NCBI GenBank assembly: GCA_012729675.1
Contig: JAAYCR010000031.1
Coordinates: 1 to 64,000, forward strand
DNA: 64,000 nt
Direction: 5' to 3'
Origin: Phycisphaerae bacterium
Lineage (GTDB): Bacteria; Planctomycetota; Phycisphaerae; Sedimentisphaerales; Anaerohalosphaeraceae
In this document: piece by piece, positions 4,536-41,468 of the stretch
Layout of the letters: each line of letters begins with the position of its first letter
How positions within the stretch are numbered: the first letter of the stretch is position 1
The notes under the pieces: model-generated
Told to the model about the DNA's origin: nothing
The model's database searches: none
The model's input: only the letters and a program-made list of their open reading frames with translations
Program-made: the position numbers and the translations under genes

Positions 4536-4609
<74 letters not shown>

Positions 4610-4614
4610 TTAAA

Positions 4615-4736
4615 ATTGACGATTGACGATTGACGATTGGCTATTTTTAAGATGGGCAATTGCCAGAAGCGTCCGCGACATGCAGTGATTTTGGATTATT
4701 GGAAATAATCAATAGTCAATAATCAATAGTCAATTG
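4615..4736. repeat. Period-7 repeat tracts between the two tRNAs
   Basis: Four GATTGAC units at 4615-4640 and a TAGTCAA/AATCAAT tract at 4705-4736. These belong to the family of heptad-periodic intergenic tracts found across the window. Confidence 0.7.
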
Positions 4737-17430: not shown

Positions 17431-18274
17431 TACGATTTTTGCATAAGAGGAAATTGGGTTTGTTTGTTCATTTTTAAGGAGTCAGGAGACAGGAGTCAGA
17501 AGGTCGGATTTTTCCCTTTCTGGCCACGGATTATCACCAATTCAGTTCTTAGTTCTTAGTTCTTAGTTCTTAGTTCGGAGTTCAGCCCACATACCTACAT
17601 TCTTGAGTTCTTGAGTTCTTTGGTCCTTGTGTTCTTAGTTTTGAGTTGTGTCGAAGTTTCTTGTTTTTATGGTTTTTAGACACAGATTGACACTGATTAA
17701 GGGGATTATTGTATTTATTACGAAAAGCACGATGATTTTTTGTGACGGGTTGTTCATTATTTTCCTCCATTCGGACGGTGTGCCCGATAGGGGAGTATTA
17801 TACCACAAAACAGGCCGAAAGGCAAGAAATGGATTGACGAGTGACGATGGACGATGGACTAAGGGGTGTGGCTTGGTGGTGATTTTTATTGATTTTTTGG
17901 GAAAGTTGTTGACGTAATTTGGACTGTGGAGTTAAATTGAATGGAATCTTTGAGCGGGCGACGGAGAAAATAAAACGTAAGATGGAAAAAGTAAAAAAAG
18001 AGGGGTATTTACCACGAAGAAATGAAGGGCGCGAAGGTGTGGCCGGGCGAAACGAGAGATTGACGATGGGCGCGTGACAACGGACAATTTTACAGAACTT
18101 TTACATTACTTTTTCGTTTTTGGTGTACAATTTAGACAAACGGATCGCAATTGAATGACGATTTCAGACATTCACGACCTTGATTTATCTGTGAGGCGAG
18201 GCATCGAGTCCAACGGTTGGGTTCGAAATTCATTGTGCAACAGGCTCTGTGAGGAAACAAAAATGAAAGCACAG
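17431..18274. repeat. Gene-free region with several heptad-repeat tracts
   Basis: No convincing gene is present. Period-7 tracts are AGGAGTC-type (17478-17503), TTCTTAG-type (17541-17580), TTCTTGAG-type (17602-17645) and GACGATG-type (17834-17864). A period-9 tract CCACGAAGA... lies near 18010. The region is AT-rich. Confidence 0.65.
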
Positions 18275-18356
18275 AAAACCGGGGACAGTCATCTATCAAT
18301 TGACAATCGAATAAACGACGGGGATGGAAATGGGTCACTGACCCTTGTTTTCCGGT
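18275..18356 (+). repeat. GGGGACAGT hairpin repeat, copy R1
   Basis: Begins AAAACCGGGGACAGTC and ends GGGTCACTGACCCTTGTTTTCC. The ends are inverted repeats, so the ~80-bp unit can fold into a hairpin. It is the first of four copies separated by one gene each. Confidence 0.8.
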
Positions 18357-18403
18357 GGTAAAGTTGGAAATTTATGAGATGAAACTTTAAAGGAGTTCTT
18401 GCA

Positions 18404-19255
18404 ATGAAAAACTGTACTTTAATACTATTATTTGCATTGTTGCTAAATGGTATCCATGCACAAAGCACCGAAAATCAAAAAATGAATCGGAGCCAAAATT
18501 CGGGGGAAATTTCTTACTTGACTATTGAGCAGTCTCTTCTGTCTTTAACAGACGTCTCATATTTTGTGTCCGGGGATTTTCCTTTTAACCGCATAAACCC
18601 AAAGGTAAAAGAGTACTTGTTGTTCTATCTTGAAAATGACAATTCTTTTGGAGAAATTACTGACTATTCATTGAGATTGCTGGGCTACGTTGCTGGGGAA
18701 GAGGATCTGCCCTATATTGATAAGTTTATTCAAACTTCAATAATAAAAGCAAATGCAGGTAATCCAAATGATAGACACGCAGGTAATTTATTAAAGAAAA
18801 TTGGTTCAGGAAGCGGCTGCATGATAGGAATGATGGTTAATAAAGAAATTAAAGGAGCAAGAGAACTCCTAAACAAATATGTGGAATCTTCTGTATGGCT
18901 TTCTGGTAGTACAACGGATTCAACTCGTAGAAATTCCCTGTCTGCACATAGAGACTTTATGGTTCAAGCATTTCAATATTCAATGGAGGGTTCTGTATTG
19001 CAAGCCATGGAAAGTGAGTTATCAAAAGGAAGAGCAGAGTTAGGAGATGATCTTGAGCGTTTTGGTAAATGGGATACTGACATGTATACAAAATCAATGA
19101 GACCTGTTAATCTTCAAGAAGAAGATTTGCAGCGAAAACTTAATGATGACTTATTAAAAAAACATCGCGGAATAGAGCCCATATTAATGAAAATAACATT
19201 CCAGCAATGGATAGACAACCAAGAGAAAAACCGGGGACAGTCATCTATCAATTGA
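18404..19255 (+). CDS. Secreted protein of unknown function, paralogue of the gene at 21285
   Basis: 283 aa with a clear signal peptide (KNCTLILLFALLLNGIHAQ). GGAG lies upstream of the ATG. The mature part is helical, with segments such as LLGYVAGEEDLPYIDKFIQT that resemble HEAT/armadillo-like helices, and a Gly-rich GSGSGCMIGMMV. No known domain is recognised. The last residues EKNRGQSSIN are encoded by the GGGGACAGT repeat that follows (R2). It is about 60% identical to the gene at 21285 in the centre, with nearly identical ends. It is AT-rich compared with the core genes, which suggests acquisition. Confidence 0.7.
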   Translation: MKNCTLILLFALLLNGIHAQSTENQKMNRSQNSGEISYLTIEQSLLSLTDVSYFVSGDFPFNRINPKVKEYLLFYLENDNSFGEITDYSLRLLGYVAGEEDLPYIDKFIQTSIIKANAGNPNDRHAGNLLKKIGSGSGCMIGMMVNKEIKGARELLNKYVESSVWLSGSTTDSTRRNSLSAHRDFMVQAFQYSMEGSVLQAMESELSKGRAELGDDLERFGKWDTDMYTKSMRPVNLQEEDLQRKLNDDLLKKHRGIEPILMKITFQQWIDNQEKNRGQSSIN

Positions 19256-19302
19256 CAATCGAATAAACGACGGGGATGGAAATGGGTAAGGGTCCCTTGT
19301 TT
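19226..19302 (+). repeat. GGGGACAGT hairpin repeat, copy R2
   Basis: Same unit as R1. Its first 30 bases encode the C-terminus and stop of the gene at 18404. Its right end is altered (GGGTAAGGGTCCCTTG). Confidence 0.8.
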
Positions 19303-19321
19303 ATATGAAAGGATTTCACTG

Positions 19322-21184
19322 ATGAAGCGTCAAACAATATCTGTTGAAGCGGAACTCGGTTATTCGGGGATTCTTGTGCTTGTGCTGCTGGGGGCGGTTC
19401 TGCTGCCGATGGCCGGGCGGCGGCAGGTTCAGGCCGCAGAGGCTCCTGTTGATGAAGAAATATATTTGACTCCTTACGAACCCGGTTCTTTGATTTATCA
19501 TGTAGATCGCTATATTGAAGAAGAGCTAAACCTTGCCAAACAAATTGCCGAGGAGTCCTTTGAAGAAACATTGCAGAATACAATTGATTGGAATAGCAAT
19601 TACTATAAACTCGTTATCTCTGATGCGGAGCCACGGACCGCTCTGCCGTCGAGCCTGAAGCTGATTGTCCATAGCCGGCGATATGCGAAGTTAATCGAAC
19701 ATGGCAAGAACGGACTTACGGATAAGGAAAAGTCAAGCCTTACAAGCCGGCTCAGCTCAGATCTCGCTCGCTGGAGAAAACTTTGGTCTGATGGACAAAG
19801 ACCTCGTGCAAGCAGCATTGCTCTTCACCGTGTCGATCAAAGCTCTGAGGAACTCATTGTACCGTTGACCTATAGAATTAACGCCGCTGTCCTTTTGGCG
19901 GAAGCTTTGTCTGTCGAAGAAGCGCTTCCCTCTATCATTCAATGCGTTGACACTCTGGGTGAGGATACGAATTGGTCAGCCGTTGGGTATGCTTGCGATA
20001 AGATCCTTGGTTCCCTGGATACGAAGACGTTAAATCCCGAACAGCAAGGAATCGTAGAAGGCTATTATGCCTGGAAAGACGGGCAAGACGCAAAGGCATT
20101 CGACTATGAAACCCAAGAGTTTCCTTCATTCAAATCACCTACAAGACCCTTTGAGCGAGCCACTGCATTAGGTGCAAACTCTGATGTTTTGCAGGACAAG
20201 GTCTGTATCGAGTTACCTACTCAGTATTATTATATGCTACTGCCTGAGGGAAAAGGATATTTTGATATGACAGGATATTATTCTGATATCTCTTATTCTG
20301 ATATCCAGAAGAAGGTCGTAAGTTTTGCCAAATCCTACTGTGAAACACTCGAAAGTACTGATATTATGGAATCCGCTGTTTCGTTTGTTGAGGGTAACTT
20401 AATGGTCGAGAACGAGATCGCAAGGGAGTCAAGACAAGAAGCTGAATTCCAGTCCAAACTCCGTGATCCCCGGGAATTTGTAAAAATGAGATCTGATCAT
20501 GAGATTACACCTGCAATAGTGAAAGGACTTTTTGATGCAGATTCTTCACTTCCCGTGTTGTACTCTCTTTTGGATGATCCGGCTTATGAAGACTATTGGC
20601 CACGGATCGTTAAGACAATCTGTTTTGTCAGCAACACCCCAAAATCAGCACCGGTTATATTGGAATATGTCCGCCGCTCAGACGATTGGGAATCACTATC
20701 TGGCTTTGGTCTTTCCGCTCGTTGTCTGGGAAAGATTGATTCGCTGAGATGGATAGGTTTGCTGGGCAGCGAAGACGCTAACCAAAGTTTGATGCAGATG
20801 CTGACAACTGACGGGGTAAAAGATTTTGCAGGAGAATGGCTGGACGGCCCTTTGCCGCTTTGGGCAAAAACACCCCAAGATGATATAATTGGCGTAATTC
20901 AGGGTTCAGCGGCGATTGGAATTGCACATTCACAGAACCAACAAGGCATAGGGATTGTGAAAGAGATGTTTGAAGCAGAGCGTGCAAAATGTAAAAAACA
21001 AGGATATGGAACCGCACTCTGTGCGATGTTGGCCGAAGCAATGGCTATCAATAGTATTATAGAATCGAAGGGTATTGACGAATACTGGAATCTCTTAAGT
21101 GACGATGTTCGATATATAAGCACCCTTGAGTTACAAATAGAGATTGTGACTGAGAAAAACCGGGGACAGTCCTCTATTCATTGA
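19322..21184 (+). CDS. Large exported or membrane-anchored helical protein of unknown function
   Basis: 620 aa. An N-terminal hydrophobic stretch (about 15-38, GILVLVLLGAVLLPMAG, then RRQVQAAEA) looks like a signal or anchor with an AxA-type site. The rest is helical. One part (about 405-470, LPVLYSLLDDPAYEDYW, then PVILEYVRRSDDWESL) looks like HEAT-type repeats, similar in style to the two flanking paralogues. AAAGGA precedes the ATG. The C-terminal EKNRGQSSIH comes from repeat R3. No enzymatic motif is recognised. Confidence 0.7.
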   Translation: MKRQTISVEAELGYSGILVLVLLGAVLLPMAGRRQVQAAEAPVDEEIYLTPYEPGSLIYHVDRYIEEELNLAKQIAEESFEETLQNTIDWNSNYYKLVISDAEPRTALPSSLKLIVHSRRYAKLIEHGKNGLTDKEKSSLTSRLSSDLARWRKLWSDGQRPRASSIALHRVDQSSEELIVPLTYRINAAVLLAEALSVEEALPSIIQCVDTLGEDTNWSAVGYACDKILGSLDTKTLNPEQQGIVEGYYAWKDGQDAKAFDYETQEFPSFKSPTRPFERATALGANSDVLQDKVCIELPTQYYYMLLPEGKGYFDMTGYYSDISYSDIQKKVVSFAKSYCETLESTDIMESAVSFVEGNLMVENEIARESRQEAEFQSKLRDPREFVKMRSDHEITPAIVKGLFDADSSLPVLYSLLDDPAYEDYWPRIVKTICFVSNTPKSAPVILEYVRRSDDWESLSGFGLSARCLGKIDSLRWIGLLGSEDANQSLMQMLTTDGVKDFAGEWLDGPLPLWAKTPQDDIIGVIQGSAAIGIAHSQNQQGIGIVKEMFEAERAKCKKQGYGTALCAMLAEAMAINSIIESKGIDEYWNLLSDDVRYISTLELQIEIVTEKNRGQSSIH

Positions 21185-21238
21185 CAATCGAATAAACGAC
21201 GGGGATGGAAATGGGTCACTGTCCCTTGTTTTCCGGTG
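21155..21238 (+). repeat. GGGGACAGT hairpin repeat, copy R3
   Basis: The best-preserved copy: GGGGACAGTC at the left and GGGTCACTGTCCC at the right form a clean inverted repeat. It supplies the C-terminus of the gene at 19322. The ~150 bp after it nearly duplicates the DNA after R1, including the promoter-proximal region and the first codons of the next gene. Confidence 0.8.
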
Positions 21239-21284
21239 GTATAGTTGGAAATTTATGAGATGAAACTTTAAAGGAGTTCTTGCA

Positions 21285-22136
21285 ATGAAAAACTGTACTT
21301 TAATACTAATATTTGCATTGTTGCTAAATGGTATCCATGCACAAAGCACCGAAAATCAAAAAATGAATCAGAGCCAAAATTCGGGAGAAATTTCTTACTT
21401 GTCCGTTGAGCAATCTCTTTTACCTGCGGCAGAGATTTCTTATTTTATGCCGGGGGCCGGCTTCCCCTTTAATCGCATAAATCCTGCGATAAAAGAGTAC
21501 TTGTTGTTTTATCTTGAAAAAGACAATTCAACCGAAGACATTACAGATCGCTCACTAAGGTTGTTAGGTTATGTTGCCGGCGAAGAAGACATTCCCTTTA
21601 TTGACCATTTTATTCAAACTTCAATCAAAAACGCCAATCTCAATAGTCTAGAAGACAGGTATGCTGAAATCTTGTTATCGTATGTTGGCTCAGGAAGCGG
21701 CTGTCTGGTCGGGATGATGGTAAAAAAAGAGATTCCGGGGGCGATAGATTTACTAAACAAATATGTGGATTCTTCTGTATGGCTTTCCGGGAGTAATAAC
21801 GACTCGACAAAAAAGAATGCCTTGGATGCACATAGGGTCTTTATGATTCAGGCGTATCAATATTCAATGGATGGCTCTGTGTTAAGGGTTATGAAAAATG
21901 AGTTATCGAAAGGCAGAGCGGACTTAAGGTTCAATTTAGAACTTTTAGAAAAACGGGATACGGACTTATATTCGGAGTCAATGAAGCCGATTGATATCAA
22001 AGAGGAAGTATTGCAAAATAAACTTAATGAAGTTTTGCGAAAAACCAAGTTAATAGAGCCCATATTAATGAAAATTACATTCCAGCAATGGATAGACAAC
22101 CAAGAGAAAAACCGGGGACAGTCCTCCATCAATTGA
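21285..22136 (+). CDS. Secreted protein of unknown function, paralogue of the gene at 18404
   Basis: 283 aa, the same length as its paralogue, with an almost identical signal peptide (KNCTLILIFALLLNGIHAQ) and C-terminus (FQQWIDNQEKNRGQSSIN). The central residues (about 45-250) differ at roughly 40% of positions, while keeping GYVAGEED, GSGSGC and SSVWLSGS. The ribosome-binding site and leader copy those of the paralogue. Diverged centres with conserved ends suggest an old duplication with conversion at the edges, or cassette-like exchange. Confidence 0.7.
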   Translation: MKNCTLILIFALLLNGIHAQSTENQKMNQSQNSGEISYLSVEQSLLPAAEISYFMPGAGFPFNRINPAIKEYLLFYLEKDNSTEDITDRSLRLLGYVAGEEDIPFIDHFIQTSIKNANLNSLEDRYAEILLSYVGSGSGCLVGMMVKKEIPGAIDLLNKYVDSSVWLSGSNNDSTKKNALDAHRVFMIQAYQYSMDGSVLRVMKNELSKGRADLRFNLELLEKRDTDLYSESMKPIDIKEEVLQNKLNEVLRKTKLIEPILMKITFQQWIDNQEKNRGQSSIN

Positions 22137-22186
22137 CAATCGAATAAACGACGGGGATGGAAATGGGTAACTGTCCAACGTTTTCC
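22106..22186 (+). repeat. GGGGACAGT hairpin repeat, copy R4
   Basis: Closes the array. Left end GGGGACAGTC, right end GGGTAACTGTCC. It supplies the C-terminus of the gene at 21285. Confidence 0.8.
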
Positions 22187-22808: not shown

Positions 22809-24635
22809 GTGGACAAAGACCTGAGTAATTCGGTGGGACTGGTTCAGACGCAAACGATTCGCGTGGTCGAGGCGGACGCTCCTTTGATGCTGCGCTGCGG
22901 CAAGACGCTGGGGCCGATTGATGTGGCCTACGAGACCTACGGCGAATTGTCGCCCGAAAAGGACAACGCCGTCCTGATCTGCCACGCCCTCAGCGGCAAC
23001 GCCCACGTCGCCGGTTTCAACAGCCCCGACGACCGCAAGCCCGGCTGGTGGGATATCATGGTCGGGCCGGGCAAACCCATCGATACCACCCGCTATTTCG
23101 TGGTCTGCTCGAATTTTCTGGGCGGGTGCAGCGGGACGACCGGTCCGTCGGACATCAACCCCGCTACGGGCAAGCCGTACGGCCTGTTGTTTCCGATGTT
23201 TACCATCGAAGATACCGTTAACGTGCAAAAGCTGCTGCTCGACAAGCTCGGCATCGATCATCTGCTGGGCGTGGTCGGCGGCTCGATGGGCGGGATGCAG
23301 GTGCTCCAGTGGGCTATTTCCTATCCGGATCGCATCGACGCGGCCCTGTGCATCGCGGCGACGACACGGCTTAACGCCCAGTCCATCGCGTTTGACGCCG
23401 TCGGCCGCAATGCTATCCTGAACGATCCTAATTTTCACGGCGGGCACTACCACGGCTGCGACACGCCCAACCGGGGGTTGAGCATCGCCCGGATGATCGG
23501 CCATATTACGTATCTGTCCGAAGAAACGATGCGCAATAAATTTGGCCGTCAGCTTCGCGCGGCCAACGAATACAAATACGATTTTAACTCCGAGTTTTCG
23601 ATTGAGACCTACCTGGATTATCAGGGGCAGGCATTTGTCGAGCGGTTTGACGCCAACAGCTATCTGTACATCACCAAGGCGATGGATTATTTCGACTTGA
23701 CGCGGGAGTATGGCTCGCTGCGGCAGGCGTTTGCCAATACCACCTGCCGGTTTCTGGTGACCAGCTTCTCCAGCGACTGGCTGTTTACGCCGGCCCAGTC
23801 CGAAGAGATCGTCGAGGCGCTCGGCGCCGAGGGCAAGGATGTGACCTACTGCAACATCGAATCGTCCTACGGCCACGACGCCTTTTTGCTGGAGGACGAA
23901 AAGCTCGGCGCGATCATCAGTGGGTTTCTCAACAGTACGCTGCACCGGATTCGCAGCGGCAGCCGCGTGGTTGCCGAACACAGAAACGGCCCGCACAAAC
24001 TCAAGATGTTCGAACGCGCCAAACGCGCCCGCGTGGATTATGAGCTGATCGACGCGCTCATCGAACCCGGCAGCCGGGTGCTGGACTTAGGCTGCGGCGA
24101 CGGCGAACTGCTGGCCCGGCTGATCCAGGACAAAGGCGTGGTCGGCGAAGGTATCGAGATCGATGAAGATATGATGATCCATTGCGTCCAGCGCGGCCTG
24201 TCGGTGATCCACCGCGATATCGAACGCGGGCTGGAGATGTACCCCAACGGCACGTTTGACTACGCCGTGCTGTCGCAGACCATCCAGACCCTGCGCGACC
24301 CGCAGAAGGTGCTCATTGAGCTGCACCGTGTCGCCCGCAAGGTCATCGTCAGCTTTCCGAACTTCGCCCATTGGAACTGCCGCTTGCAACTGTTCTTTAG
24401 CGGACGCGCCCCGCAGACGAAACAACTGCCGTTCCGGTGGTACAATACGCCGAATGTCCACGTGCTGACGCTGAAGGATTATGACCGCTTTTGCGCCGAA
24501 CTGGACATCAAGATCGAAAAACGTCTGCCGCTGGGCAAAAAGTCCATCTGGCCGGTACGGCTTCTGCCCAATCTGCTGGCCTCACAGGCCGTTTATGTCA
24601 CCAGCAAATACCAGCCGCTTTCAATTGACTATTGA
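22809..24635 (+). CDS. metXW: Homoserine O-acetyltransferase fused to MetW methyltransferase-like domain
   Basis: 608 aa with two parts. Residues 1 to about 385 are MetX, an alpha/beta hydrolase. They carry the oxyanion/acyl loop CHALSGNAHVAG, nucleophile elbow GGSMGGMQ (Ser near 159), catalytic Asp in SSDWLF near 321 and His in SYGHDAF near 357. MetX acylates homoserine for methionine synthesis. Residues about 400-600 are MetW, with the SAM-binding LDLGCGDGELL near 425 and the MetW-typical VIVSFPNFAHWNCRLQL and LPFRWYNTPN. The two are usually separate adjacent genes. Here one reading frame joins them. The last five residues LSIDY and the stop are encoded by a TTGACTA heptad tract. The start is GTG with a promoter right before it. 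Confidence 0.93.
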   Translation: MDKDLSNSVGLVQTQTIRVVEADAPLMLRCGKTLGPIDVAYETYGELSPEKDNAVLICHALSGNAHVAGFNSPDDRKPGWWDIMVGPGKPIDTTRYFVVCSNFLGGCSGTTGPSDINPATGKPYGLLFPMFTIEDTVNVQKLLLDKLGIDHLLGVVGGSMGGMQVLQWAISYPDRIDAALCIAATTRLNAQSIAFDAVGRNAILNDPNFHGGHYHGCDTPNRGLSIARMIGHITYLSEETMRNKFGRQLRAANEYKYDFNSEFSIETYLDYQGQAFVERFDANSYLYITKAMDYFDLTREYGSLRQAFANTTCRFLVTSFSSDWLFTPAQSEEIVEALGAEGKDVTYCNIESSYGHDAFLLEDEKLGAIISGFLNSTLHRIRSGSRVVAEHRNGPHKLKMFERAKRARVDYELIDALIEPGSRVLDLGCGDGELLARLIQDKGVVGEGIEIDEDMMIHCVQRGLSVIHRDIERGLEMYPNGTFDYAVLSQTIQTLRDPQKVLIELHRVARKVIVSFPNFAHWNCRLQLFFSGRAPQTKQLPFRWYNTPNVHVLTLKDYDRFCAELDIKIEKRLPLGKKSIWPVRLLPNLLASQAVYVTSKYQPLSIDY

Positions 24636-24715
24636 CTATTGACTATTGTTTATTGTTTTCTGCGTAATCTGCGAAATCTGTGGTTTTATCTTCTGTCTTC
24701 TGTCCTCTGTCTCTC
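24622..24715. repeat. TTGACTA heptads, then period-9 and TCTGTCT tracts
   Basis: CAATTGACTATTGACTATTG at 24622 onward overlaps the end of metXW. It is followed by TCTGCGTAA-TCTGCGAAA-TCTGTGGTT (period 9) and TCTTCTG-TCTTCTG-TCCTCTG (period 7), which reach the stop of the XRE gene. Confidence 0.7.
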
Positions 24716-38818: not shown

Positions 38819-39571
38819 TCAGCTTTTGCTCAAAGCGTCCCAGTCGCACAGGCTTATCGCTTCGAGGACGGCGTCGCCGAGGCGAAGGTGTTCGACGCTG
38901 CTGAGGTCGTCGTAGGGGACGACGGTCAGGACGTTTGTCCGGCCGCATCGGGCGATGACGTTCGAGGCGGTTTCTTCGGGAATCTCCGCCGTAGCGGCAT
39001 TGTACCCGTTGATGACCACGCCCGCAACAGGCAATCCGGCCGCCCGCACTGCCGCCAGGGTCAGGAGGGTGTGGTTGATCGTCCCCAGGCCGGGGCGGGC
39101 GACGATGACCGTCGGCAAATCCAGCCGCGCGGCCACGTCGAGAATCGTCACGTCCTCGGCCAGCGGCACCAGCGCCCCGCCGATGCCCTCGACCAGCACC
39201 ACGTCGCAGGTCTGGGCCAGAAAGCCAAACGCGGCGGCGATGGCCTCAAAATCGACAGGCTTTCGCTCGATCTCGGCACAGACCATCGGCGCCGCCGGCG
39301 TCTTGTAGCAGACCGGCGTGATGACCGACAGCGGGTAGTCCGTCTCGGCGCAGGCCGCCAGAAACTCGGCGTCGGCGCTGACCAGTCCCTCCCGATCGCG
39401 CCGACACCCGCTGGCCACGGGCTTGAGAACGCCGACTTTCTTGCCCGCCTCCCGCAGCAGCCGCGCAATCGCCCCGGTCACCAGCGTCTTGCCGACCGCC
39501 GTATCCGTGGCCGTAATAAACAACCCCGCCCCCTTGGGCAAGTCCCGAAACACATCAGACCATGTTGTCAT
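38819..39571 (-). CDS. bioD: ATP-dependent dethiobiotin synthetase BioD
   Basis: 250 aa. P-loop FITATDTAVGKTLVTGAIAR near residues 18-37, substrate-binding VGVLKPVASGC and the VLVEGIGGALVPLAED motif are typical of BioD. BioD closes the ureido ring of dethiobiotin with CO2 and ATP in the cytoplasm. No other bio gene is adjacent. It is 80 bp upstream of nadB and may share a transcript with it. Confidence 0.93.
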   Translation of the reverse strand: MTTWSDVFRDLPKGAGLFITATDTAVGKTLVTGAIARLLREAGKKVGVLKPVASGCRRDREGLVSADAEFLAACAETDYPLSVITPVCYKTPAAPMVCAEIERKPVDFEAIAAAFGFLAQTCDVVLVEGIGGALVPLAEDVTILDVAARLDLPTVIVARPGLGTINHTLLTLAAVRAAGLPVAGVVINGYNAATAEIPEETASNVIARCGRTNVLTVVPYDDLSSVEHLRLGDAVLEAISLCDWDALSKS

Positions 39572-39700
39572 CCATCATACTCCATAAAAATGAATCAAAG
39601 CCCCAGCCGCATCCGCGGCCGGATAGCGATTTCGCACCGAAGGTACAATATCCCTTGGCCCAAGGCAACGCCCTGGGAACCCGTCCTCTCTTCAACCCAC

Positions 39701-40059
39701 CGCTCTGAAAGAGCAGCATACTATCCTGCCCGTAAACCGTACCGCCGGCATCCTGTCGGCACATGCCCGTCAATCCACCACCCCGGCACCCACAAGCTGC
39801 GCTTGAAGGTGCCACACTTTCAATTGACTATTATTTATTGACTATTGACTATTAGGCAAGGTTGCAGAGGCCACCCGTCGCTCTGAAAGAGCAGCATACT
39901 ATCCTGCCCGTAAACCGTACTGCCGGCATCCTGTCGGCACACGCCCGTCAATCCACCACCTTGGCACCCACAAGCTGCGCTTGAAGGTGCCACACTTTCA
40001 ATTGACTATTGTTTATTGACTATTGACTATTGGGCAAGGTTGCAGAGGCCACCCGTCGA
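39701..40059. repeat. Tandem duplication of a ~180-bp repeat unit
   Basis: Two near-identical units (about 39701-39879 and 39880-40059). Each contains GAAAGAGCAGCATACTATCC, CATCCTGTCGGCACA, CCACAAGCTGCGCTTGAAGG, a TTGACTA heptad tract and GTTGCAGAGGCCACCCGTCG. The second unit's right half forms the left arm of the inverted repeat around the 117-aa gene. Confidence 0.85.
39963..40059 (+). repeat. Left arm of a ~96-bp inverted repeat
   Basis: From GGCACCCACAAGCTGC to AGAGGCCACCCGTCG. It is complementary, with few mismatches, to 40480-40575. Confidence 0.85.
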
Positions 40060-40073
40060 GGCCATCCGTCGTT

Positions 40074-40427
40074 TTACTTTTCGGGATAGCTGCAAAGGGG
40101 GATCGTACTGCTGAACGTGAGTAACATTGAATTTTTCAGTAATGGCCGCAGGTACTTAATATCTTCTCGATCTAAACCATCATAGATATGCTCGACGAAA
40201 CAGGCTGCAAGAATGCTTATCATATCTTCTCTACCTTCCTTAATGATCCAACTGGAAAACTGTATAATCCTTTTTGTTAATGTCGTGTTACGTTGTTTAA
40301 TGCTCTCTTGATATACCTCTCTCAAGCATAATAAAGCATGGGCCTGTGAGAATTCCCAACCATCCTTTTGTACCTGTTTAAAGACTTCGGGTAATTCTTC
40401 CTGAAGTTTTAATCGCCATTTTGCCAT
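40074..40427 (-). CDS. 117-aa helical protein between inverted repeats
   Basis: 117 aa with no signal peptide or transmembrane segment. Predicted all-helical: LKLQEELPEVFKQVQKDGWE, FSQAHALLCLREVYQESI, LTKRIIQFSSWIIKEGREDM and ILAACFVEHIYDGL. It resembles small stand-alone proteins of the immunity or HEAT-like type found next to repeats, but I do not assign a family. The gene fills the space between two 96-bp inverted arms almost exactly, so it looks like the cargo of a small mobile cassette without a transposase. Confidence 0.65.
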   Translation of the reverse strand: MAKWRLKLQEELPEVFKQVQKDGWEFSQAHALLCLREVYQESIKQRNTTLTKRIIQFSSWIIKEGREDMISILAACFVEHIYDGLDREDIKYLRPLLKNSMLLTFSSTIPLCSYPEK

Positions 40428-40479
40428 TTTGCATTCGTTTCATTTACGTAAACTTTCGCATGTTTCTTAAAATATTAAG

Positions 40480-40575
40480 CGACGGGTAGCCTCTGCAAAC
40501 TTGATAAATAGTCAATCGTCATTAAACAATAGTCAATTGAAAGTGTGGCACCTTCAAGCGCAGCTTGTGGGTGCG
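40480..40575 (-). repeat. Right arm of the ~96-bp inverted repeat
   Basis: CGACGGGTAGCCTCTGCAAA...CAATAGTCAATTGAAAGTGT...CGCAGCTTGTGGGTGCG. It is the inverted counterpart of 39963-40059. Confidence 0.85.
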
Positions 40576-40952
40576 GGGTGTCTCTGTGCTGTTCAATTGT
40601 GCTCATCCTTTTCACCTCTGTAAAGATGTCTTGGGCTCTCTGCCGCCTCGTCGCGCGCCGCGGGCGGCCGGATTATACATCCCCCCTCAACTAAAACCAG
40701 TGAATTTCGACCCAATAAGCAATAAGGAATAATCATTAAACAATTACAATACAATCTTCCCCAAAATCCTCAACACCTTTTTTCGCACGATATCCCCCGC
40801 GGCCGCGGCGTCTCAAATCCAATCGTCCCTCGTCAATCCATTTCCCCGTGATACCCCTATTTGCTGTTCTCGCTGGGTATGCGGTTGGAGAGACGGGCGT
40901 GTTTATTTTAGTGTACATTTATCGGTTTTTGTAGCTGTTTTGCGAAAGAGGC
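40576..40952. other. Gene-free stretch with a dispersed repeat
   Basis: No convincing gene. CCGCGGCC...CTCAAATCCAATCGTCCCTC at about 40795-40836 is an inverted copy of the heptad block near 22696. A 60-codon minus-strand frame here (40736-40918) runs through this repeat and is not called. Confidence 0.4.
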
Positions 40953-40981
40953 TTGACAGGAATGGGGCTTATTCTTATCAT
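40953..40981 (+). promoter_or_regulatory. Promoter of the GreA-domain genes
   Basis: TTGACA (40953-40958), 17-bp spacer, TATCAT (40976-40981), about 70 bp upstream of the first ATG. Confidence 0.65.
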
Positions 40982-41051
40982 AAGCAGAAGTGATTAATAT
41001 TCAAGAGGTTCTGTCAACAAGCCGATATAAATAGATGGAAACGATAGTGTT

Positions 41052-41468
41052 ATGGCAGCGAAAAAGATTCAGGTAACCCAGGTTGATCATGAGCGGTTGA
41101 CGCGGCTGATCGATTCGACGCGGAATGTCTCCACGCAGGATCAGGCCTTTTTGGACAAACTTCGCACAGAACTGGTTCGCGCCCGGATTATTTCATCCAA
41201 GCGCGTCAAGCCCGACGTGGTGACGATGAACTCAACGATCAAGCTCCGCGATCTTGACAATGGCGAACTGCACGAATACCAACTGGTGTATCCGCAGGAC
41301 GCCGACCCGGAGAACAATAAGCTGTCAATTTTGGCTCCGGTGGGTACGGCGCTGCTGGGGTTCAGTGTCGGGGATACGGTGGAATGGCCGGTGCCCGCGG
41401 GCCTGCGCCATTTGAAGATCGAGGAGATCATTTATCAGCCTGAGTCGGCCGGGGATTATACCCTTTGA
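41052..41468 (+). CDS. Rnk/GreA-C-domain transcription regulator
   Basis: 138 aa. A short N-terminal helical hairpin (about 8-45) leads into a GreA/GreB C-terminal FKBP-like domain (about 50-138): VTMNSTIKLRDLDNGELHEY, then QLVYPQDADPENNKLSILAP, then VGTALLGFSVGDTVEWPVP. This is the Rnk (nucleoside diphosphate kinase regulator) arrangement. Such proteins bind RNA polymerase without the long Gre coiled coil, so no transcript-cleavage activity is expected. A second, diverged copy follows 17 bp later. Confidence 0.88.
   Translation: MAAKKIQVTQVDHERLTRLIDSTRNVSTQDQAFLDKLRTELVRARIISSKRVKPDVVTMNSTIKLRDLDNGELHEYQLVYPQDADPENNKLSILAPVGTALLGFSVGDTVEWPVPAGLRHLKIEEIIYQPESAGDYTL

Follow-up and report, generated by a model that had tools for sequence, protein, structure and literature searches.

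Long REP-type repeats of a RAYT-associated family on either side of an acquired DUF7674 gene in a Phycisphaerae genome

A small gene enclosed by long inverted repeats, one arm of which lies within a tandem duplication, occurs on contig JAAYCR010000031.1 of a Phycisphaerae bacterium (family Anaerohalosphaeraceae; assembly GCA_012729675.1), and the question raised by this locus is whether the repeats are the ends of a mobile insert carrying a single gene or came to lie beside the gene in another way. The first-pass annotation of the 64,000-nucleotide stretch analysed here (positions 1 to 64,000 of the contig, termed the window) had proposed the former, and grouped the locus with two leu-operon cassettes as three transposase-less inserts of one class, all carrying small helical proteins. 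This class falls apart on comparison of the repeats, which are unrelated: the leu-operon four-helix-bundle genes (PF05635) are framed by different ones, which share with the arms of the present locus only a 10-nt chance match.

The architecture of the locus itself was described accurately. The arms, annotated as about 96 bp and about 90% complementary, occupy 39964-40058 (minus strand) and 40480-40574 (plus strand), extend over 95 nt with 93% complementarity, and are separated by 421 bp, in which the sole open reading frame is the expected 117-codon gene (40074-40427, minus strand), which leaves 15 nt between its stop codon and the left arm and 52 nt between the right arm and its start codon. 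A second inverted pairing links 39782-39882 with 40478-40578 (101 nt, 91%). The tandem unit, estimated at about 180 bp, consists of two direct copies of 178 bp (39695-39872 and 39873-40050, no strand assigned) that are 96% identical and take in the left arm; the first is made up of a local spacer and an outer left arm (39786-39880, minus strand). The 91-bp part of the unit outside the arm (39695-39785) recurs in the genome only as its tandem copy and a 26-nt sub-motif. The left neighbour of the locus is bioD (38819-39571, minus strand), and the right neighbour is a rnk/GreA-like gene (41052-41468, plus strand). An Rfam search of 39500-41100 gave no match. Elsewhere in the window, a gene region appears to have been duplicated at 18219-22183, where long direct repeats of 132-300 nt (64-94%) recur at a distance of about 2.9 kb.

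Read from the inner end outward, each arm is composed of CGACGGGTGGCCTCTGC, a run of heptamers and GTGGCACCTTCAAGC GCA GCTTGTGGGTGC, the heptamers being TTGACTA or TTGACGA when read in the opposite direction, and both the TTGACTA tract and the GCTTGAAGGTGCCA hairpin noted previously were found in the arms, the latter with a DNA fold z of about -2.8 to -3.5. Outermost lies an imperfect hairpin, at whose foot the GTGG head is found. The inner left arm thus carries its hairpin at 39964-39990, the heptamers at about 40000-40032 and the end motif at 40042-40058, while the outer left arm holds a hairpin at 39786-39812, heptamers and a GGCCACCCGTCG end at 39864-39880; in the right arm, the end motif (40480-40496) is followed by the heptamers (40507-40540), the GTGG head (40545-40548) and the hairpin (40548-40574). 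REP repeats are defined as GC-rich palindromes preceded by a GT[AG]G head (PMC2817692, PMC6006769), and in the right arm the head adjoins the hairpin with a one-base overlap (fold z -2.8). Moreover, the hairpin is dispersed in multiple copies: 22 were detected in the 2.8-Mb genome when at most 3 mismatches were allowed, and 0 with a reversed-pattern control, and the pattern is therefore not a product of chance. These copies are strongly clustered, and 12 of the 22 have no neighbouring copy within 1 kb, which speaks against the earlier view of the arms as ends of a mobile insert with one gene. Examined as a possible sign of insertion bias, GC content averages 0.45 on the head side of the 22 hairpins and 0.52 on the other side, values to which clustered copies do not contribute independently. 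The arms are no novel kind of terminal repeat but REP-type repeats, in which a GTGG-headed hairpin GCACCTTCAAGCGCAGCTTGTGGGTGC and a run of heptamers are accompanied by a second GGGTGGC motif.

Runs of TTGACTA-type heptamers also exist without the hairpin, at 4609-4736 and 24618-24655 of the window and at two further loci (L193 and L027), some of them beside tRNA-like sequences, and in four relatives (G012, G021, G017 and G034) such runs form inverted pairs about 50-90 bp apart.

The transposase sought by the first-pass annotation, one that would recognise the arms, has a counterpart in sister genomes in the form of a RAYT (REP-associated tyrosine transposase) gene with arm-matching ends. The same hairpins, in inverted orientation, flank a protein of 190-206 aa that is intact in G003 (contig C13) and G002 (C215, where the left hairpin contains one inserted base) and deleted in G001 (C116). 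In addition, the arrangement recurs in two other genera, since G010 (C109) encodes an intact RAYT that is 57% identical to that of G003, and G031 (C74) retains a split RAYT with the same hairpins around it. The genome under study possesses no intact cognate RAYT, only a deleted and frame-broken remnant between hairpins on C40 (25989-26406), and no remnant was recognised at the protein level next to the arms in the window. The two proteins scanned with the NCBIfam model NF047646, those of G003 and G010, scored 97.6 and 88.8 bits (cut-off 80); both also exceed the PF01797 (Y1_Tnp) cut-off and contain the HLH/HVH motif, and they accordingly belong to the REP-associated subgroup of the IS200/IS605-like HUH/Y1 proteins. 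Inverted REP copies thus surround the RAYT gene in G003, G002, G010 and G031 as well as the remnants in G001 and on C40. The G003 element has one end whose alignment takes in the full 95-nt arm of the window at 77-80%, and this terminal arm is also matched by the outer left arm; at the opposite end, 31-35 nt of the hairpin are identical. The genome also harbours a second REP family (GGGTGGCATCGGTTCTGCGCAGCAGACCGATGG), which shares the GGGTGGCA start but has another hairpin, at L142 (C89) and L205 (C3:6500-7000); the RAYT at C89, whose frame is open, is assigned to it.

The orientation of the heads separates these elements from the locus in the window. In all thirteen cases examined, comprising seven REPINs and six RAYT elements, whether intact or broken, the GTGG heads face outward; the REPINs are canonical doublets of the same hairpin in G010, GGGTGGCACCTTC...GAAGGTGCCACCC, with spacers of roughly ten bases. 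The window pair, ordered hairpin, end motif, gene, end motif and hairpin, has its heads inward and does not form a REPIN of inverted REPs with outward heads and a short spacer, as the seven G010 loci do. The DUF7674 gene is consequently not in the position of RAYT cargo. Three such inward pairs exist in the genome, each enclosing an AT-rich small ORF: that in the window (117 aa, GC 0.39), C37:21841/22685 (178 aa, GC 0.36), which is situated inside a Rhs array, and C40:25524/25989 (113 aa, GC 0.32). The enclosed ORFs are mutually unrelated, and none was encountered as a repeated unit. The C40 pair is explained by the adjoining of two RAYT elements, the first of which retains a RAYT 3' tail ACACCACACAACCCCCCGGCACCC. 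The AT-rich small ORF in each of the three is the strongest point for the first-pass proposal, and inward pairs may be associated with small foreign genes, although REPs are strongly clustered in this genome anyway. Rhs (TIGR03696) arrays at four loci, L058 (C37:21841-23535), L071 (C33:53232), L072 (C41:62631) and L060 (C46), contain REP arms positioned between immunity-like small ORFs and a repeated Rhs core stub, and an arm runs directly into the common sequence AGAAGATACGGCAATG on C37 (two copies), C33 and C41.

The gene between the arms encodes a member of the DUF7674 family (PF24722; 34.2 bits, gathering cut-off 27), and its foreign appearance was substantiated by a GC content of 39% against 52% in the window, by a patchy distribution of DUF7674 (6 genomes among 298 of the class, 5 of them above the cut-off), and by the failure to find the gene in three sister species (assemblies 77-88% complete). 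Its nearest relatives reside in two other genera of the family (G025 and G059) and are 79% and 73% identical, while bioD there is 60-63% identical; the 79% identity of the gene in another genus, compared with 63% for bioD, together with the failure to find it in the three sister species, indicates horizontal transfer. The DNA similarity between the window gene and these relatives ends at the gene plus about 17 nt, and no inverted repeats were found around six other DUF7674 genes, those of G025 and G059 and four more distant ones. The dN/dS values of 0.10-0.18 among the three relatives indicate that the gene has been functional under purifying selection. Searches of phage, plasmid and viral contigs with the protein found no match, nor did PADLOC; its AlphaFold2 model, built from three sequences, is all-helical (pLDDT 75), and a fold comparison of this model with the PDB produced no significant match. 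An integron gene cassette was considered and rejected, as only 15 nt separate the stop codon from the REP arm and no attC follows the gene.

A clue to the function of the family comes from G121 (L212, C53), in which a distantly related DUF7674 gene starts 3 nt behind a gene for a PT-HINT and PT-TG pre-toxin protein. This single locus places the gene where an immunity gene would stand and provides a lead toward an immunity role, and the window gene might plausibly encode an orphan immunity protein like those of polymorphic toxins; no cognate toxin is located directly upstream of the DUF7674 gene in the window, G025 or G059. DUF7674 is thereby a candidate immunity family on the strength of one toxin-adjacent locus. 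Downstream of the DUF7674 gene on the same G121 contig is an ORF that resembles a Y1 transposase by eye, and another locus (L210, G159:C7) contains three DUF7674 domains in tandem across two adjoining ORFs.

The surroundings of the locus bear on how gene and arms came together. In sister genomes where both sides are readable, bioD and rnk are not adjacent: in G001 the gene on the far side of bioD is hypF-like and not rnk, and in G003 rnk comes after a hisS-like gene (gene names assigned by eye). The interval is therefore a rearrangement junction, that is, a synteny breakpoint, at which no clean empty site can be read. Neither a target-site duplication nor a second arm-gene-arm copy was found. 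That the locus is a rearrangement junction would agree with an insertion of the gene into a pre-existing head-to-head REP dimer, whose palindrome would have served as a hot spot of insertion or breakage; joined to each other without the gene, the arms would make up a nearly perfect palindrome, ...CCACCCGTCG/CGACGGGTGG..., and some insertion sequences do target REPs, such as ISPpu9, which is described as inserted in REPs (PMC8450116). Nevertheless, no close head-to-head arm dimer lacking an insert was seen among the loci of the genome, and with neither a duplicated target site nor a further copy of the insert, such an origin appears improbable.

A genuine cassette, in which gene and inward-facing arms move as one unit and are mobilised in trans by a RAYT recognising the hairpins, would draw on the matching terminal hairpins of the RAYT elements in sister genomes, on the AT-rich ORFs in all three inward pairs and on the horizontal acquisition of the gene. 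Several observations speak against it: the heads face outward in every RAYT element and REPIN observed, the ORFs inside the three pairs are not related to one another and were not seen to recur as units, the relatives of the window gene are devoid of arms, the C40 pair is accounted for by its two adjoining RAYT elements, and the genome is without an intact cognate RAYT. This reading is accordingly very unlikely, and so is its wider form, by which heads-inward, RAYT-recognised arm pairs would constitute a further mobilisable format, one in which individual small foreign genes of the orphan immunity type are moved in trans; the earlier idea of a mobile insert is opposed by the orientation and the arm-less relatives (73-79% identical) alike. 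The arms might instead be a functional regulatory pair kept by selection, with a terminator downstream and a promoter or RNA stem upstream of the 117-aa gene. REPs are preferentially found downstream of genes (PMC3733652), the left arm is only 15 nt past the stop codon, and the TTGACT motifs may resemble -35 boxes; yet the relatives of the gene persist without arms, and arms lie beside unrelated genes throughout the genome; this alternative, too, is very unlikely.

The account we consider probable is that solo REP arms of the RAYT family, with their heads inward, came to enclose a DUF7674 gene that had been acquired at a junction, and that a local tandem duplication followed. The arms would be two solo long REP repeats, or three with the tandem copy, shed as terminal arms from a RAYT element whose transposase is intact in sister species and survives here as a broken remnant. 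They would have come to oppose each other on either side of the gene at the rearrangement-prone bioD/rnk junction, and a later tandem duplication would have copied one arm together with its local spacer. We infer separate arrivals of arms and gene; an uninterrupted site is preserved in no sister genome. The window pair probably does not represent the ends of a gene-carrying transposon and looks like a chance neighbourhood. The transposon-like part of the system is the RAYT element, which is of a known kind, and the locus presents a new member of the REP/RAYT families beside an acquired gene.

Measured against known systems, the window gene conforms to the DUF7674 family in its score above the gathering cut-off and its helical nature, and it differs as an orphan without an adjoining toxin from the G121 homologue, which stands behind the PT-HINT/PT-TG toxin. 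The long REP arms, of which the publications consulted give no description, recall the TIRtrons, that is, long TIRs around RAYT-like genes (PMC3733652), in which long terminal arms are likewise joined to REP-like palindromes and also dispersed alone; TIRtron arms are unrelated to REPs, whereas the arm described here holds the GTGG-headed hairpin and is hence of the REP type. With the REP/REPIN and RAYT systems (REPtrons), the family shares the imperfect GC-rich palindrome with a GT[AG]G head on its 5' side, the dispersed copies, the RAYT gene between inverted copies and, in one relative, the REPIN doublets, and it departs from them in its long form with a heptamer run and second GGGTGGC motif, its low copy number, and the inward heads and 421-bp separation of the window pair. 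In place of a candidate transposase-less gene cassette there is thus something concrete that can be checked: this planctomycete family has a REP/RAYT family of the GTGG type, whose transposases are intact in sister species and whose REPINs form a population in another genus.
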